DNA of 64,000 nucleotides from contig NZ_HE997181.1 in the NCBI RefSeq assembly GCF_000312425.1, positions 1,393,486 to 1,457,485 on the forward strand. Reading direction: 5' to 3'. Numbering within the stretch: position 1 is the stretch's first letter; every line of letters begins with the position of its first letter. The DNA comes from Reyranella massiliensis 521 (lineage in GTDB: Bacteria > Pseudomonadota > Alphaproteobacteria > Reyranellales > Reyranellaceae). The translations under genes and the position numbers were made by a program. Below are positions 3,414 to 17,935 of this stretch, piece after piece. Below the pieces are notes generated by a model. The model saw nothing but the letters and a program-made list of their open reading frames with translations. It was not told where the DNA came from and searched no databases.

Positions 3414-3965
3414 GTGCAGGTGGCGGACCTCAACCAGATCGACCTGCAGGCGCTCGTGAGAGGCGACAAGCGTAGCTGGGACGCTTTTGTCGCCGCGGCA
3501 GCGCCGCTGATCAACGCCATGGTGCGCCGCGCTCTCGCGCCCTACGGACTGGGCGAGGAGGATGTCATGGACGCCGCCCAGGACGTCTTCGTTCGGCTCT
3601 GCGCCCAGGATTTCCGCCTCCTTAAGACCTACGATCCGGCGCGGGCCGGTTTATCCACATGGGTGGCCGTGGTTGCCCGGTCGGCGGCCATCGACCATGC
3701 GCGACGCCGGCGCCGTCCCACTCAGCCGATCGACGAAGTGCCGGAGTCCGCGCTGGGCGTCGAGGACCGGCATGTCGAAAAACTCAAGATTCCTCAAGGG
3801 CTTCTGACCGAACGTCAAACCCTCATCCTGAAGTATCTCTACGACGAGGAGCGCGAGGTTGCCGATATTGCGCAGCTCCTGAAGGTCGATCCGCAGACGG
3901 TGCGCAGCACCCAGCACCGCGCTTTGGTCCGGTTGCGCGCATATTTCCGCGAAGGGACCGGCTGA
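3414..3965 (+). CDS. ECF-family RNA polymerase sigma factor
   Basis: About 183 residues with the two-domain layout of extracytoplasmic-function sigma factors. Sigma2 (roughly residues 20-95) includes GEEDVMDAAQDVFVRL and STWVAVVARSAAIDHAR, matching regions 2.2 and 2.4. Sigma4 (about 125-178) has the helix-turn-helix EVADIAQLLKVDPQTVRSTQHRALVRLR. It should direct RNA polymerase to a small regulon. It heads a tight forward cluster with an anti-sigma-like protein 50 bases downstream, so the two probably form a regulatory pair. The start is GTG; the GTG at 3420 has the better-spaced purine-rich site (AGAAAGAG) and gives 181 residues. Confidence 0.88.
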   Translation: MQVADLNQIDLQALVRGDKRSWDAFVAAAAPLINAMVRRALAPYGLGEEDVMDAAQDVFVRLCAQDFRLLKTYDPARAGLSTWVAVVARSAAIDHARRRRRPTQPIDEVPESALGVEDRHVEKLKIPQGLLTERQTLILKYLYDEEREVADIAQLLKVDPQTVRSTQHRALVRLRAYFREGTG

Positions 3966-4015
3966 GTCGGGGATGAAACCGGACTTTCTAACGTATTGTG
4001 AGCCAGGAGAGTGCG

Positions 4016-4543
4016 ATGAGCACGCAACGTAACGACTTACCCGCGAGCGACAAGGAGCTGTGGCACAGCCTCGATGCCAATGGCGCCGCCCAGCGGCCGG
4101 TCGACGACATGGAATTCGCGGCCTGGATCGAAGGCCGGCTGGACGAGGCCGAAATGGCACGCCTGGAGGCTTCGGTGGCGGCCGATCCCGATATGCGGCG
4201 CGCTGCCCTCGATATTGCCGACATCCTGGGCAAGCCCTTGCCCGACGCGCCGGAGCGTGTCGTCGTGCAGGCGCGTGCGCTTGTTGGTTTTGAAGCCGAG
4301 CGCAGGCTTGCCGGCAAGGGATTTGGAGACTGGCTGCTGAACTGGATGGCGCCTTCGACCCTGCGGCCTGCTGCCGTGACCATGGCGGCGATCGCCATTG
4401 CAGTCGGCGGCTTTACGATGGGCGGCGGGCTCGGCGCGTCGTTCGCGCAACAGCAAAGTGATGTGAACGGCATCCAAAAGGCCAGCTCAAGGTCGGAGGT
4501 CTCCACCGACATCAGCGAATTCTTCACGTCCGACGGGATCTGA
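4016..4543 (+). CDS. Putative anti-sigma factor, single-pass membrane protein
   Basis: A 175-residue protein with a soluble N-terminal half. Its DMEFAAWIEGRLDEAEMARLEASVAADP stretch resembles anti-sigma domains, but without the usual His-Cys-Cys zinc ligands. One membrane segment lies at about residues 123-145 (AAVTMAAIAIAVGGFTMGGG), followed by a short polar C-terminal tail. The ATG at 4016 follows CAGGAGA with five-base spacing and is preferred over an upstream GTG at 3998. Position directly behind the ECF sigma gene is the main reason for the call: a membrane anti-sigma that sequesters the sigma factor until an envelope signal arrives. This role is inferred. Confidence 0.65.
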   Translation: MSTQRNDLPASDKELWHSLDANGAAQRPVDDMEFAAWIEGRLDEAEMARLEASVAADPDMRRAALDIADILGKPLPDAPERVVVQARALVGFEAERRLAGKGFGDWLLNWMAPSTLRPAAVTMAAIAIAVGGFTMGGGLGASFAQQQSDVNGIQKASSRSEVSTDISEFFTSDGI

Positions 4544-4544
4544 C

Positions 4545-5084
4545 ATGAGCTCGCGTCTGCTTCAGCTCCTGCTGATCTTCTCGCTTCTATTGAACAGCTT
4601 CGTCATCGCGGGATTCGTATACAGGGGCTGGATCGCGCCGCCGACCGAAGTCGGGCTGGCCCCGCCGCCTCCGCCTCCGCCTCCGCCATCCGGGTCAGCA
4701 CCGCGGCCCGGCCCGCTCGAAGTCGTCACGCGCGAGCTCGACCTCGACCAAGGCCAGCGCGAAGTGTTTCGCAGCCTGATCGAGCAGCATGCCGCCAAGC
4801 GCCGCGAACGCCTGCAGGAGATCCACCGGGATCGCGAGCAGGTCGCCGCCGAAATGCGCCGTCCTCAGCCCGACCTGGCGAAGGTCGAGGGCCTGATCGA
4901 CCGTGTGAGCGAGCTGCGCGGCGAGCTGATCAAGGAAAACCTGCGCACCTTGGCGGCATTCGAGCCGAAGCTGCGGCCAGAGCAGCGCGAGCGCATGTAC
5001 GTGATCTTTGCCGATCGCTTCGCCGGCGTGTCGTCAACACCGCAGCGTCCGCGCGAGCAGGCGGCACCGCGTCCGCCCCAGTAG
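4545..5084 (+). CDS. Periplasmic metal-resistance/CpxP-like protein, membrane anchored
   Basis: A 179-residue protein with an N-terminal hydrophobic anchor or uncleaved signal (residues 5-25), a run of nine prolines near residue 41, and then a long charged helical region. The LDLDQGQREVFRSLIEQHAAKRRERLQEI start of that region and the later repeats of LxxEQR type resemble the Spy/CpxP and CnrX-like Metal_resist fold, which binds metals or misfolded proteins in the periplasm. Its start lies one base after the anti-sigma stop, so the genes are translationally coupled. A sensor or chaperone subunit of the sigma/anti-sigma pair, as in the CnrYXH systems, is a reasonable inference. Confidence 0.7.
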   Translation: MSSRLLQLLLIFSLLLNSFVIAGFVYRGWIAPPTEVGLAPPPPPPPPPSGSAPRPGPLEVVTRELDLDQGQREVFRSLIEQHAAKRRERLQEIHRDREQVAAEMRRPQPDLAKVEGLIDRVSELRGELIKENLRTLAAFEPKLRPEQRERMYVIFADRFAGVSSTPQRPREQAAPRPPQ

Positions 5085-5097
5085 CAGGAGGCATCGC

Positions 5098-6654
5098 ATG
5101 GCCTTCCCTCTCAGCCGTCGTGGGTTCGTGGGTGGCATTGCCGCGCTTTCCACCGGCCTGTGGTCGGCATCGCCAGCTCGCGCCGCCGCAACGATGGACT
5201 TCGACGAGGCAAGGCATCTTCTGTCGCGCACGTCATTCGGCGCCACGCCGGCCGAGATCCATGTCTTCGAGCAGTTGGACTACGCCGCTGCCGTCGACCG
5301 TCTGCTCGGCAATGTCCGGCGCACGGCCGGGACGCCGGGGCCGCAGTGGCTGAACCAAGGGCCGGCCGAAGTACGCCGGCAGCAGCAGGCGGCCGAAGCG
5401 CAGCGCAAGGAAGGCGTCGACGGCAGGAAGCTCGAGATCGTGCGGCCGATCCAGGAGCAGGGCCGCGAACTCAAGAACTGGTGGATCGAGGAGATGCTTG
5501 CGACCGACCAGCCGCTGGTCGAACGCATGGTGCTGTTCTGGCACAACCATTTCACCTCCTCGATGCTGAAGGTGCGCTACGCGCCCGCGCTGTTTAGGCA
5601 GAACGCCCTGTTCCGCCGCGAGGCGCTGGGCAACTACGCGACCCTCCTGAAGGAGGTGGCGCGCGACCCGGCGATGCTGATCTACCTCGACGGCATGCGC
5701 TCGGTGGCGCGTCAGCCGAACGAGAATTTTGCCCGCGAACTCCTGGAACTCTTCACCCTGGGCGAAGGCCATTACACCGAAGCCGACATCAAGGCCGCGG
5801 CACGCGCCTTCACCGGCTGGTCGGTCAATCGCGAAACCGGACAGTTCATCGAGCGCCAGGGGCAGCACGACGACGGCGAGAAGACCTTCCTCGGCAAGAC
5901 GGGCCGTTTCGGCGGCGAAGAAATCCTCGCGATCCTGCTCGCGCATCCACGGACGGCCGAGACCATTGTCCAGAAGATGTGGCTGGAGTTCGTGTCGCTG
6001 AAGCCCGACCCGGCCGAGGTCAAGCAGCTGGCAGCCGATTTCCGCCGCGGCGGCTACGAGATCAAGCCGCTGGTGCGCGCAATGCTATTGTCGCCGGCGT
6101 TCCGCGATCCCGCAAACCGTGGCGCGCTGATCAAATCGCCAGTCGACCTGATCGTGGGCAGCGTCCACATGCTCGGCCTGCCGGTACCGGAGAAGACCGG
6201 CCTGGTACGCATGCTGCAGGGGCTGGGGCAGGTGCCGTTCGACCCGCCCAACGTGAAGGGCTGGCTGGGCGGCGAAAGCTGGATCACCACTTACACCTTG
6301 CTGCTCCGCCAGCAGTTCCTGCGGCGCATGATCGAGGCCACCACGGTGGCGTCGATGGAGGGCGGCATGATGATGGCGCCGCGGCCCAATCGCCGCGCCG
6401 ATCGCAAGCAGCAGATTGCGGGCGAAGACGGCACCGTGCAGATGCAGATGGCGGAGCGCCGGCCAGTCGAGGGGCGCAGCCTGCGTAACGCCGGCGTCGA
6501 AGTGCGATTAGGGCCGACATTGACGGGTGTCGACAGCGCGACCCTCGTGCGCACGCTGCTGCCGCGCCAGCCTATCGATTCGGTCGATGCCTCGGGCACG
6601 CCGGGCGCCGCCGTTGCCGCGGCGATGCTCGATACGGCCTATCAGCTCAAGTGA
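5098..6654 (+). CDS. DUF1800 family protein with Tat signal
   Basis: A 518-residue DUF1800 protein of unknown biochemical role. The N terminus (SRRGFVGGIAALSTG) is a twin-arginine signal, with processing expected near ASPARAA. This implies export folded, possibly with a cofactor. Family landmarks are HLLSRTSFGATPAE, FWHNHFTSS, NENFARELLELFTLG, ARAFTGWS, VKGWLGGESWI and a C-terminal LP-rich region. The ATG at 5098 sits behind a perfect AGGAGG. The DUF1501 gene begins 10 bases after its stop, the classic pairing for these two families. The position behind an ECF sigma/anti-sigma module is less usual and suggests envelope-stress control of the pair. Confidence 0.88.
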   Translation: MAFPLSRRGFVGGIAALSTGLWSASPARAAATMDFDEARHLLSRTSFGATPAEIHVFEQLDYAAAVDRLLGNVRRTAGTPGPQWLNQGPAEVRRQQQAAEAQRKEGVDGRKLEIVRPIQEQGRELKNWWIEEMLATDQPLVERMVLFWHNHFTSSMLKVRYAPALFRQNALFRREALGNYATLLKEVARDPAMLIYLDGMRSVARQPNENFARELLELFTLGEGHYTEADIKAAARAFTGWSVNRETGQFIERQGQHDDGEKTFLGKTGRFGGEEILAILLAHPRTAETIVQKMWLEFVSLKPDPAEVKQLAADFRRGGYEIKPLVRAMLLSPAFRDPANRGALIKSPVDLIVGSVHMLGLPVPEKTGLVRMLQGLGQVPFDPPNVKGWLGGESWITTYTLLLRQQFLRRMIEATTVASMEGGMMMAPRPNRRADRKQQIAGEDGTVQMQMAERRPVEGRSLRNAGVEVRLGPTLTGVDSATLVRTLLPRQPIDSVDASGTPGAAVAAAMLDTAYQLK

Positions 6655-12646: not shown

Positions 12647-13685
12647 TGTGAGCTTTCAATAGGTTGTCCATCCGGCTCTGACCGAGGAAGCTGAGGTTGT
12701 CGAGACTTCAGTGATCCGTTGGAGAAGAGCCGAATGGACATCCACAAGAATGCCCGGCTGACGCCGCTCGGTCGAGAGCGGATGGTCAGCCAGATCTGTC
12801 GTGGGCAAACGCCGAAGGCCGTCAGTGAAGCCGTAGGCGTTTGTCCTCGCACAGTGCGTAAATGGGTTCGCCGCTACCAAGCGGAAGGGGTGGCGGGCCT
12901 GCGGGATCGCAGTTCGCGGCCGCACCGGCTGCGGCGGCCGACGCCGCAAGCCTCGATCAACCGCATCGAGGCTCTGCGCCGCCAGCGCTGGACGGGTAAG
13001 GCGATTGCCACTGAGATCGGTGTGTCGGCGGCCACCGTCAGCCGGGTGCTGAAGCGCTTGGGCCTCAACAGGATGAGCGCTTTGGAGCCTGCCGAGCCTG
13101 TGCGGCGCTACCAGCGTGACCGGCCAGGCGAGCTCATCCACCTCGACATTAAGAAGCTCGGCCGAATCGGCTCGATCGGCCATCGCATCACCGGACGCTA
13201 TAGGGGCGCCGTCAATCGGCACCGTGGCATTGGCTGGGAGTTCGTGCACGTCTGCATCGACGATGCCTCGCGCATCGCCTTCACTGAGATCAAGCCGGAC
13301 CAGCGCAAACACAGCGCCGTCGCCTTCCTCAAGGCGGCCATCGCCTACTACAAACGGCTCGGCATCAAGGTGGAGCGGGTCATGACCGACAACGGCTCGT
13401 GCTACCGCTCCAACGCCTTCCGCAAAACCTGTCAGCGGCTGGGTCTCCGCCAGATCTTCACCAAGCCCTACACGCCCAAGACAAACGGCAAGGCCGAACG
13501 CTTCATCCAAACTTCTCTACGAGAATGGGCGTACGCTCGTGCCTACGACTCCTCGCGGCAGCGCGCCAAGGAGTTGCCCGTCTTCATCCAACGATACAAC
13601 TGGCATAGACCTCACGCCGGCATCGGCGGCCACCCGCCCATCAGCAAACTCGGTCTAACCTGGAATAACCTGTTGAGACTCCACA
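12647..13685 (+). mobile_element. IS481-family insertion sequence, about 1039 bp, apparently intact
   Basis: The element begins TGTGAGCTTTCAATAGGTTG. Its right end, read inward on the minus strand, is TGTGGAGTCTCAACAGGTTA; 15 of the outer 21 positions match, forming imperfect terminal inverted repeats. The left end closely resembles that of Bordetella IS481 as remembered. One transposase frame fills it. The flanking 6-bp duplications (GCTAGC) are identical and the ORF is open, so insertion looks recent. It landed between the abutting stop codons of pdeM and the convergent hydratase gene. Confidence 0.88.
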
Positions 13686-13690
13686 GCTAG
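12734..13690 (+). CDS. IS481-family transposase (DDE integrase)
   Basis: A 318-residue transposase. The N-terminal winged or HTH part (residues 5-110) has the IS481 hallmark start DIHKNARLTPLGRERMV, TPKAVSEAVGVCPRTVRKW and VSAATVSRVLKRLGL. The retroviral-type catalytic core carries the DDE triad in HLDIKKLG, VMTDNGSCYRS and TNGKAERFIQTSLREWAY. It ends with NWHRPHAGIGG. The ATG at 12734 gives the family N terminus. The last serine codon is completed by, and the TAG stop lies entirely within, the duplicated target sequence. The element therefore relies on its CTAG target for termination. Confidence 0.93.
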   Translation: MDIHKNARLTPLGRERMVSQICRGQTPKAVSEAVGVCPRTVRKWVRRYQAEGVAGLRDRSSRPHRLRRPTPQASINRIEALRRQRWTGKAIATEIGVSAATVSRVLKRLGLNRMSALEPAEPVRRYQRDRPGELIHLDIKKLGRIGSIGHRITGRYRGAVNRHRGIGWEFVHVCIDDASRIAFTEIKPDQRKHSAVAFLKAAIAYYKRLGIKVERVMTDNGSCYRSNAFRKTCQRLGLRQIFTKPYTPKTNGKAERFIQTSLREWAYARAYDSSRQRAKELPVFIQRYNWHRPHAGIGGHPPISKLGLTWNNLLRLHS

Positions 13691-14537: not shown

Positions 14538-15236
14538 ATGATGGCAGAAGCGGCGAAACATTTTGGCCCGGTCCGCGCCGGAGCCGTGGTCGGTGTTGTC
14601 CTGGCAGGCGGCGAGGGGCGACGGATGGGGCCGGGCCCCTTGAAGCCGCTGCGGCCGCTGGCCGGCCGGCCGATGGTGGCGCATGTGGTCGAACGGCTCC
14701 GCCCGCAGGTCATGGATCTGGTCGTCGTGGCGAACGACCCGTCGCCTGCCTTTCGCAAGCTCAAGGTCCCCGTGATTGCCGATCCGCCCGACATCCAGGA
14801 CGCGGCGCAGCGCGAGGGACGGCGGCTGGGACCGTTGGCCGGTATCCTGGCCGGAATGGAATGGTCGCTGCGGGAGCATCCACACGCCGGCTGGATCCTG
14901 ACGGCGCCGGCCGACGTGCCCTTCCTGCCGCTCGACCTGACCGTGCGGCTTTGCGGGCTCATGCATGTCCCGGAGCCCGACGTGCTGATGGTCCGGCATG
15001 GCAAGCGGCGCGAGCACACACTCGCCGTCTGGTCGGTCAAGCTCGCGGGCGATCTCAGGCGGGCGATACTGGAAGAGGGCGTGCGCCGGGTCGACGAGTT
15101 CGCGCGGCGCTACGTCTTCGAGGAACTGGTCTGGCCGGGCGGCGGGGCCGCACACTTTCTGAACGTGAATACGCCGGCGGAACTCAAGGTCGCGGCAGGT
15201 CGGCTGACTGGAGCTCGATCACGTTCCCGTCGATGA
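14538..15236 (+). CDS. mobA: Molybdenum cofactor guanylyltransferase-like protein (MobA)
   Basis: A 232-residue nucleotidyltransferase of the MobA/NTP_transf_3 group. MobA links GMP to molybdopterin to make the MGD form used by DMSO-reductase-class enzymes. The nucleotide site is VVLAGGEGRRMG with a following Lys-containing KPLRPLAGRPM; LGPLAGILAGM, TAPADVPFLPLDL and [11 protein letters not shown] are family blocks. The glycine loop reads GEGRRMGPGP, slightly off the usual GGxSxRMG, so related MobA-like transferases are possible. Two adjacent ATGs (14538, 14541) are equivalent starts. Its 3' end overlaps the DUF3553 gene on the other strand by about 50 bases. Confidence 0.8.
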   Translation: MMAEAAKHFGPVRAGAVVGVVLAGGEGRRMGPGPLKPLRPLAGRPMVAHVVERLRPQVMDLVVVANDPSPAFRKLKVPVIADPPDIQDAAQREGRRLGPLAGILAGMEWSLREHPHAGWILTAPADVPFLPLDLTVRLCGLMHVPEPDVLMVRHGKRREHTLAVWSVKLAGDLRRAILEEGVRRVDEFARRYVFEELVWPGGGAAHFLNVNTPAELKVAAGRLTGARSRSRR

Positions 15237-15456
15237 CGACCTTGCCGGCATTCTCGAAGTTCACAGTGATGCGATGTCCGGCAATCGACTGGATCTGGCC
15301 AAGGCCCCAATCCGGTCGGTCGGCGTGGCGCACGAAGTCTCCGGGCGAAAGTAAGGCATTGCCGGGCTTGTCGAACAAGTTTGCGTGACTCCAGGCTGTG
15401 GCTACGATAGCCCGCGTGTGAGGGCTGGTGAGCTCAAGCTGGCCTATATAATCCAT
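15184..15456 (-). CDS. DUF3553 family small protein
   Basis: A small protein whose C-terminal 55 residues match DUF3553: [43 protein letters not shown]. The same SH3/CarD-like fold module occurs in RNA-polymerase or helicase-associated regions, but the stand-alone protein is unstudied. Family members are about 60 residues, so the first 30 residues here may not be translated and a TTG start around 15380 is possible. The ATG at 15456 lies within the apparent -10 box of the divergent bufferin operon. Confidence 0.7.
15447..15452 (+). promoter_or_regulatory. Candidate -10 box (TATAAT) of the bufferin operon
   Basis: A perfect TATAAT lies 28 bases before the bufA start codon, with a GGGAGAA ribosome site in between. 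No clear -35 hexamer is seen 17 bases upstream, so an activator may be needed. No SigF-type promoter, as described for Caulobacter bufferin operons, was recognised. Confidence 0.4.
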
Positions 15457-15479
15457 GCCGCCATGTCAGGGAGAAATTC

Positions 15480-15725
15480 ATGAACACGACCCGCATTGCC
15501 ATTGCCACGGCTCTCGCTGCCGCCCTTGCACTGCCGGCCACCGTCCAGGCGCAGGGCAACATGGAGAAGTGCTACGGCGTAGCCAAGGCCGGCAAGAACG
15601 ACTGCCAGACGGCGAAGTCGTCCTGCGCCGGCACGTCGAAGACGGACCATCAGAGCGACGCCTGGATCTCTGTTCCCAAAGGCACCTGTGACAAGATCGT
15701 CGGCGGCAAGCTGACTGCTGGCTGA
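15480..15725 (+). CDS. bufA1: Bufferin precursor peptide BufA1 (DUF2282)
   Basis: An 81-residue DUF2282 peptide. Residues 1-24 are a Sec signal ending VQA. The mature part has four cysteines (31, 42, 49, 70) in the pattern [21 protein letters not shown] and [12 protein letters not shown]2282 peptides are bufferins: RiPP metallophores whose central cysteines are turned into thiooxazole rings by a MNIO enzyme, then exported to the periplasm to buffer copper. The order A-B-C with the next gene two bases away strongly supports the call. Copper as the metal is by analogy with the Caulobacter system. Confidence 0.88.
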
Positions 15726-15727
15726 GC

Positions 15728-16567
15728 ATGCACGCCGTCGCCGGCATTGGCCTGCGCTCGCCGCATCTTGCGGAGGTGGCGCATGACCGGCCGGCGACAG
15801 GTTTTCTCGAGGTCCATGCCGAGAACTATCTCACCGGATCGCCGGCCCTGCAGAACATCGAGCGGTTGCGGGCCGACTATGAGTTTTCCCTCCACGCGGT
15901 GGGCCTGTCGCTCGGCTCCGTCGAGGGAATAGACAACGCTCATCTCGAACGCGTCGCAGCTCTCGCGGAGCGCCTCGCGCCGGCTTTGATCTCCGATCAT
16001 CTGGCCTGGAGCGTGAGCGGCGGACGTTATTTCAACGACCTTCTTCCGCTGCCCTACACCGAGGAAGCGCTCGACGTCGTCGTGGGCAATGTCCAGCGGC
16101 TTCAGGATCGGTTGAAGCGTCAGGTCCTGGTCGAGAATCCATCCTGTTATCTGGGTTTCGCGCATTCGACGTTCTCGGAACCGGCGTTCCTGGGCGAGCT
16201 CGTGCGGCGCAGCGGCTGCGGCCTGCTGCTGGACGTGAACAACATCGTAGTGACGGCGCACAATCTCAGGCTCGATCCCGCAGCCTGGCTCGCCGACCTG
16301 CCGGCGTCGGCTATCGGCGAATACCATCTTGCCGGCCACGCGGTGAACGATGCCGACGGCGAGCCGATCCTGATCGACGATCATGGCAGCCGGGTGAGCG
16401 CGGAAGTGTGGTCGTTGTTCGACTCGGTCCTCGAGCACTATGGGCCTCGTCCGACGCTGATCGAATGGGACACCGACCTCCCGGCGCTCGGGATCCTTCT
16501 CGAAGAAGCGGCACGCGCTGGCCGTGCCTTGGAGGTCAGGACAGGGGCGGATGCTCGGGCTGCGTGA
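15728..16567 (+). CDS. bufB1: MNIO peptide-modifying enzyme BufB (DUF692)
   Basis: A 279-residue DUF692 protein, a TIM-barrel multinuclear non-heme iron oxidase that modifies precursor-peptide cysteines. Candidate iron ligands are in the expected blocks: FLEVHAENYL, FSLHAVGLSLGS, ISDHLAWS, LVENPS, LLLDVNNIVVTAHN, EYHLAGHAV, IDDHGSRV and LIEWDTDLP. These His, Glu, Asp and Asn residues are typical of the family. It starts two bases after the bufA stop and overlaps bufC by 17 bases, so the three genes are co-translated. Its substrate is almost certainly the adjacent BufA1 peptide. Confidence 0.9.
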   Translation: MHAVAGIGLRSPHLAEVAHDRPATGFLEVHAENYLTGSPALQNIERLRADYEFSLHAVGLSLGSVEGIDNAHLERVAALAERLAPALISDHLAWSVSGGRYFNDLLPLPYTEEALDVVVGNVQRLQDRLKRQVLVENPSCYLGFAHSTFSEPAFLGELVRRSGCGLLLDVNNIVVTAHNLRLDPAAWLADLPASAIGEYHLAGHAVNDADGEPILIDDHGSRVSAEVWSLFDSVLEHYGPRPTLIEWDTDLPALGILLEEAARAGRALEVRTGADARAA

Positions 16568-17348
16568 TCTGCAGGCAGCCTTCGCCGGTATGGTGAAAGG
16601 CGAGGACCAGCGGCGGCTGGAGGCGGCTGTGGTGGGAGATTCCATCCCTGCCGCCGCTCGGCTTCGCGTCTACCGCCATCACGTGGAGCGAAGCCTGGCC
16701 GCTGCATTAGCGACTACATTCTCGACCGTGCAGGCGATCGTCGGTGAGGATTTCTTTCGGGCGATGGCCGGGCGCTATGTCGACGGCGATCTGCCGCGCC
16801 AGCCGGTGCTGGCCGAATACGGCGCCGGCTTTCCGCGGTTCATCGCGGGTTACGAACCTGCAGAGTCCCTGCCTTATCTTGCCGATGTAGCCCGCCTCGA
16901 TTGGGCGCTGAACCTCGCCTTCCACAGTTTGGCGGCGAACTATCTGACGGCCACTGACCTCTCCTCGCTGTCGGCGGAGCGCGTGGCGGAGCTGCCCCTG
17001 GCGCTGGCGCCTGGGGCCGCCGTCCTCCGTTCGAGCTATCCCATCGATCGGATTTGGCGGGTCTCTCAACCAGGGGCGGCAGACGAGACCGTCGATCTTG
17101 GGGCCGGAGGCGTAAGCCTGCTGGTTCTGCGGCAAGAGGACGATGCAGCCTTTATCCAAGTCAGTGAAGCCGAAGAGGCATTTCTGTCGGCTGTAGGACG
17201 GGGCGAAACCCTGGAGAGGGCGGCCGAGGTTGGCTTTCGAACCGATGATGCTTTCGACCTGCCCACGACGTTCACGCGTCTGCTCGCTTTGAATGCAATT
17301 GCTGCAACGCAACATCGCTTGGGCGATGGAGTCGAAAAAGCCCTGTAA
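16551..17348 (+). CDS. bufC1: MNIO partner protein BufC (DUF2063)
   Basis: A 265-residue protein with an N-terminal DUF2063 helical domain (LRDLQAAFAGMV, RLRVYRHHVERSLAAALATTFSTVQAIVGEDFFRAMAGRYV, LPYLADVARLDWALNLAF) and a C-terminal region of about 90 residues that resembles a winged or RRE-like recognition module. In bufferin and methanobactin-type pathways this protein partners the MNIO and presents the precursor peptide. ATG 16551, inside the end of bufB, matches the family start. The operon ends here; the DoxX-like membrane protein that often follows is absent. Confidence 0.85.
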   Translation: MLGLRDLQAAFAGMVKGEDQRRLEAAVVGDSIPAAARLRVYRHHVERSLAAALATTFSTVQAIVGEDFFRAMAGRYVDGDLPRQPVLAEYGAGFPRFIAGYEPAESLPYLADVARLDWALNLAFHSLAANYLTATDLSSLSAERVAELPLALAPGAAVLRSSYPIDRIWRVSQPGAADETVDLGAGGVSLLVLRQEDDAAFIQVSEAEEAFLSAVGRGETLERAAEVGFRTDDAFDLPTTFTRLLALNAIAATQHRLGDGVEKAL

Positions 17349-17420
17349 AAATAGGGGCTGATCAGGTGGCAACTTATGCTGCACTGCATGGCTAGAATCA
17401 GTCAACGACACTGAACCTTC

Positions 17421-17448
17421 TTGCGGTGCAAAGGACCGTCCCTATACT
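17421..17448 (+). promoter_or_regulatory. Sigma-70-type promoter of dksA
   Basis: TTGCGG (17421-17426), a 16-base spacer and TATACT (17443-17448) form a good housekeeping promoter. Start is expected near 17455, leaving a leader of about 60 bases before the dksA ATG. The leader contains a stem, GGTCCGCC / GGTGGACC around 17463-17487, without a U-run. Confidence 0.5.
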
Positions 17449-17515
17449 CCGCGCGCCTCAAGGGTCCGCCGTCCCCTCGGTGGACCAGTAGTCGCTGCGA
17501 GTGGAGTTGCCGACA

Positions 17516-17935
17516 ATGTCGATCACGTTGCCGCAGAATTATCGGCCGACTGAGCGTGAGCCTTTTATGAACCCGATGCAGCAGGAATACTTCCGCCAGA
17601 AGCTGCTGAAGTGGAAGGGCGAGCTGATCGAGGAGTCTAACCAGACGTTGCAGAACATGCAGGAGGAGAGCCTGGCTCAGCCCGATCTCGCCGATCGCGC
17701 GACTGCCGAAACCGATCGCTCTCTTGAACTGCGGACCCGCGACCGCTTCCGTAAGCTGATCTCCAAGATCGACCAGGCGATGAAGTCGATCGAGGAGGGG
17801 ACCTACGGCTACTGCGAAGAGACCGGCGAGCCGATCTCCCTGAAGCGTCTCGAAGCCCGTCCTATCGCTACGCTCTCGGTCGAGGCGCAGGAGCGCCACG
17901 AACGCATGGAGCGGACGCGCCGCGACGAAGGCTGA
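17516..17935 (+). CDS. dksA: RNA polymerase-binding transcription factor DksA
   Basis: A 139-residue DksA/TraR protein that enters the RNA-polymerase secondary channel and works with ppGpp in the stringent response. The coiled coil (residues 20-85) carries the tip region DLADRATAETDRSLELRTRDR with the acidic residues needed for activity. The globular C-terminal region YGYCEETGEPISLKRLEARP has one Cys where classical DksA has four, so zinc is probably not bound. This degenerate site is common in alphaproteobacterial DksA. The ATG at 17516 is preferred to a GTG at 17501. The D-aminoacylase gene is convergent 24 bases downstream. Confidence 0.9.
   Translation: MSITLPQNYRPTEREPFMNPMQQEYFRQKLLKWKGELIEESNQTLQNMQEESLAQPDLADRATAETDRSLELRTRDRFRKLISKIDQAMKSIEEGTYGYCEETGEPISLKRLEARPIATLSVEAQERHERMERTRRDEG

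Follow-up and report, generated by a model that had tools for sequence, protein, structure and literature searches.

A bufferin-type operon lacking doxX is a genus-wide trait of one chromosomal locus in Reyranella

Bufferins of the Buf1 type carry thiooxazoles and bind copper, with BufB and BufC listed as their maturation proteins (PMC12452194; PMC13097082). In the described route BufB and BufC convert the central cysteines to thiooxazoles, the peptide is exported through Sec and copper is held in the periplasm (PMC12452194, PMC13097082). The sigF-nrsF-bufABCD operon of Caulobacter crescentus (CC3252-CC3257) and the gig operons of Cupriavidus and Legionella share precursor, maturase and partner families with the operon described here, but they carry DoxX, in Caulobacter together with linked sigF/nrsF, whereas the present operon has neither. 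The C. crescentus operon CC2907-CC2906-CC2905 (CCNA_03001-02999), which is under sigF (PMC3511200) and copper-induced (PMC8224329), likewise consists of precursor, MNIO and DUF2063 genes without DoxX or an adjoining sigma factor (PMC3511200, PMC8224329). The three-gene architecture lacking DoxX is therefore already known; what is new here is its fixation throughout the genus, by doxX loss at a single locus, along with an apparent independence from sigF.

The operon lies in a 64-kb stretch of DNA from Reyranella massiliensis 521 (the window), where the following features are relevant:

15394 to 15412, forward strand: 19-bp imperfect dyad GGCTGTGGCTACGATAGCC, its centre some 77 bp before the bufA start codon; candidate binding site for a regulator, or a hairpin
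15447 to 15452, forward strand: TATAAT, a -10-like box roughly 30 bp before the ATG of bufA
15480 to 15725, forward strand: bufA1, 81-residue precursor; PF10048 (DUF2282) at 90.7 bits, cut-off 22.4
15728 to 16567, forward strand: bufB, MNIO maturase (DUF692); PF05114 at 320 bits
16551 to 17348, forward strand: bufC, partner protein with DUF2063 plus an RRE-like domain; PF09836 at 73 bits, cut-off 27.2

A sequence-only reading had identified the three products as a four-cysteine DUF2282 protein, a DUF692 MNIO and a DUF2063 protein, encoded by genes that overlap or lie within two bases of each other, and these profile matches bear it out, with two bases between bufA and bufB and an overlap between bufB and bufC. 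The cysteines of BufA1, at positions 31, 42, 49 and 70, recur in every orthologue listed, and the precursor has, as judged by eye, a Sec-type signal peptide. BufB also exceeds the cut-off of the NCBIfam MNIO_BufB model NF050167 (350 bits against 310) and can be aligned with the MNIO structures 3BWW, TglH and MbnB; its candidate metal-site residues (H56, H91, E136, N137, D169, H200, D217, H219, E246 and D248) are invariant among 14 homologues, and its nearest named relatives are Reyranella records. The coordinates of bufC are counted from an ATG, with a GTG at 16524 as a possible alternative start. Its product scores 42.7 bits on the NCBIfam HvfC model, under the cut-off of 142, and a search of PDB sequences with BufA and BufC found no relatives. 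The top PDB matches of the AlphaFold2 model of BufC (pLDDT 88) are to chain A in two TglHI structures, 8HCI (E 4e-6) and 8HI7 (E 4e-5), in which the MNIO enzyme TglH is joined by its partner TglI; weak matches to RRE-type peptide-binding proteins follow. Judged by their sequences, bufA1, bufB and bufC are intact members of named families. A DUF2282 precursor with four cysteines, a BufB-type MNIO with an intact candidate metal site and an adjacent DUF2063/RRE partner are thus all present, while two Buf1 features are lacking here: a doxX gene within the operon, which is frequent but optional (CC2907-CC2906-CC2905 also does without it), and sigF/NrsF linkage, seen in a subset of operons. The family matches fit the earlier assignment as a Buf1 bufferin operon without its DoxX partner.

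Absence of the fourth gene, also claimed from the letters, holds at both scales at which it was searched: no DoxX or NrsF homologue is encoded within the 64-kb window, and neither doxX nor sigF/nrsF adjoins bufABC. The whole genome (5.79 Mb in one contig, 97% complete by estimate, with a small chance that a DoxX or NrsF was missed) contains one DUF2282, one MNIO, one DUF2063 and one DoxX protein over the cut-offs. A genome search for an unlinked DoxX had been proposed, and this single hit, at C1:4352642, about 2.9 Mb from the operon and in an unrelated context, is its outcome. We think it improbable that this DoxX still serves BufA in trans. The gene is present, and in many relatives bufA-doxX pairs do lie away from bufABC, but on a profile of bufferin-linked DoxX, where linked proteins mostly score 107-179 bits, the C1:4352642 protein reaches only 45-57 bits; its gene is surrounded by transporter-type genes and has nothing bufferin-like beside it; and the whole genome of one congener that possesses the operon (G063, 96% complete) gave no match to DoxX. 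The profile was built from linked DoxX because the NCBIfam HvfX model fails to part these from other DoxX (39-50 versus 42 bits, all below the cut-off of 80). A search for a doxX relic in the interval between bufC and dksA gave no convincing match.

The family sample comprised 75 genomes, of which 58 have the A-B-C cluster, and 40 loci were fetched for inspection. In these the operon stands by mobA and dksA, a few contigs stopping before dksA, and the Reyranella loci have the common order hydratase, mobA, bufABC, dksA, D-aminoacylase. All 34 same-genus loci inspected lack doxX; dksA lies directly 3' of bufC, with no space for an extra gene, in 32 of them, the remaining two contigs breaking off at that point. 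The DoxX-less operon is a genus-wide trait at a fixed locus and not the oddity of one strain, and ten well-covered same-genus genomes, that of the window included, combine the compact operon with no DoxX linked to a bufferin-type gene. At the same chromosomal position doxX is kept between bufC and dksA, unlike in the window, in G002, G003 and G004 (sister genus) and in G073, and is again absent in G071 and G074; BufB proteins from the dksA locus, those of the doxX-bearing operons and of the window among them, form a single clade (support 0.998). Since relatives keep doxX after bufC at this very spot, its absence points to loss from an ancestral four-gene operon, and on the simplest reading of these loci the ancestor was ABCD, with one loss of doxX at the genus base and renewed loss on the branch or branches leading to G071 and G074. 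The sequence-only suggestion of a minimal version is better put as a loss of doxX, particular to this lineage, from an operon that was ancestrally ABCD.

Loss of one gene could also mark the onset of decay, with doxX gone first and the remainder under relaxed selection. Along with the missing doxX, the divergence of bufC, which is 48-60% identical to that of many congeners, and the failure to detect a DUF2282 gene in some genus genomes would fit such a remnant, but the three genes stay together at one spot in dozens of genomes, and all four BufA cysteines and the candidate metal site of BufB are invariant. Intact retention since a loss at the genus base argues against decay, which we regard as very improbable. 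Lineage-specific loss of doxX, where relatives keep it at the same spot, makes Reyranella a natural experiment on the need for DoxX, in which the telling genomes are G000, without another bufferin system, and G063, without any DoxX, and it points to strain pairs in which the contribution of DoxX to metal tolerance can be measured.

An even sample of Alphaproteobacteria yielded 52 A-B-C operons, of which 50 carry doxX, both exceptions coming from one genus, in agreement with the earlier remark that DoxX is common in such operons. Adjoining sigF/NrsF is found in 11 of the 50 ABCD operons sampled, so its absence here is ordinary. The further remark that no sigma factor or copper gene is linked applies to the immediate neighbourhood only, for a cluster with an ECF sigma factor and a PF13801 protein lies about 11.5 kb upstream of bufA:

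3414 to 3965: ECF sigma factor
3998 to 4543: anti-sigma-like protein
4545 to 5084: heavy-metal-resistance domain protein (PF13801)
5008 to 6654: DUF1800 protein

This cluster is possibly a metal- or stress-sensing unit. An IS481-family transposase gene (12719-13690, a near full-length match to NF033577) shares the strand of mobA and lies some 0.9 kb upstream of that gene.

The sigF motif, GTAACC-N16-CGAA (PMC3511200), searched with up to two substitutions, occurs upstream of nine of the 11 sigF-linked bufA genes; it is absent upstream of the window bufA, and among the dksA-locus operons only one has it, with two substitutions. In CC2907-CC2906-CC2905, which chromosomal sigF controls, a sigF promoter was mapped by 5' RACE; the window genome differs in having neither an NrsF gene (whole genome, 97% complete by estimate) nor the motif at bufA. 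The TATAAT box has counterparts in most genus orthologues, where a TAT(A/G) box begins near -33 to -36, and no Rfam element was found in 15100-17700. From its upstream sequence the operon is probably under non-SigF control. That it might be differently regulated had been proposed earlier, and the lack of nrsF in the genome, the lack of the sigF motif and a different conserved upstream element support this in part; the missing linked sigma factor, being ordinary, does not.

Across the 75 genomes the dyad pattern GGCTATSGNNACGATAGCC, with at most one mismatch, has 27 distinct places, and 18 of these are upstream of bufA; the reversed-pattern control has two. The dyad is present in 16 same-genus and two sister-genus genomes, where it stands about 65-120 bp upstream of bufA. 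It is found in only about one third of the same-genus orthologues and is missing or degenerate in most, so that a regulator is speculative and the dyad a lead only. A DUF3553 gene (15184-15456), undetected in several congeners, is divergent from bufA; as its longest frame begins 24 bp from the bufA ATG and covers both the dyad and the -10 box, its start is likely further downstream. The dyad is kept in genomes without a detected DUF3553 gene, which indicates that it goes with bufA. As a regulon-wide operator the dyad was rejected: the places away from bufA that were opened proved to be coding sequence or to lie beside unrelated genes, and no regulon was found.

We infer modification, copper binding, export and regulation in Reyranella by analogy with the described bufferins. 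Transcription would probably start at a promoter of sigma70 type, and in some species a dyad-binding factor may modulate it. BufC, as the RRE-type partner, would bring BufB to the cytoplasmic precursor, where BufB would oxidise the central cysteines 42 and 49 to 5-thiooxazoles; Sec would then export the modified BufA, a disulphide may join the outer cysteines 31 and 70, and the mature peptide would chelate excess periplasmic copper. Since doxX, which in most such operons encodes an accessory membrane protein, was lost from the operon in the genus ancestor, the comparison of loci suggests that DoxX is probably not needed to make the peptide in Reyranella, and the product is probably a periplasmic copper buffer made by BufB and BufC without it. 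We hold with good confidence the reading as a whole, a Buf1 operon of the Reyranella lineage whose exported thiooxazole peptide, made by BufB and BufC, would chelate periplasmic copper, with doxX ancestrally lost and control other than by sigF. One competing account, which we rate as possible though clearly the less probable, supposes constitutive production of the peptide, or production aimed at a different metal or an oxidant (gold, silver, cadmium or hypochlorite), in place of a copper response. The TATAAT box and the lack of nrsF and of a sigF promoter motif would suit it, and related operons also respond to Au, Ag, Cr and Cd (PMC8224329, PMC3511200); against it, both Cu(I) and Cu(II) are bound by Buf1 of Caulobacter (PMC12452194), and the Caulobacter operon without DoxX belongs to the core set of genes induced by copper (PMC8224329). 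A wider metal specificity is suggested by fusions to MerC and by the induction of gig operons with gold (PMC12452194), and a metal other than copper could be the target of BufA.

Other Reyranellaceae have a second, separate operon of the CC3252-CC3257/gig type, which the window genome lacks. About one third of Reyranellaceae genomes contain two-gene bufA-doxX units with no MNIO in the same transcription unit (L164, L168-L174, L176-L184, L186-L188). The DoxX proteins of these units fall into one clade, the cores of their BufA precursors almost match that of dksA-locus BufA, and the genomes that hold them have MNIO and DUF2063 genes elsewhere; from these sequences the precursors of the two-gene units are likely matured in trans. 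A bolder proposal, which we put forward only tentatively, is that the Reyranella bufferin system is independent of both DoxX and SigF, that a regulator reads the GGCTATsGnnaCGATAGCC dyad upstream of bufA, and that BufB and BufC from the dksA locus mature the near-identical bufA-doxX precursors in trans. MNIO-DUF2063 pairs without an adjoining DUF2282 gene occur at about 50 places in the family; in the two that were read (L165 and L166) the MNIOs are about 40% identical to the window BufB, and such pairs probably serve another type of precursor.
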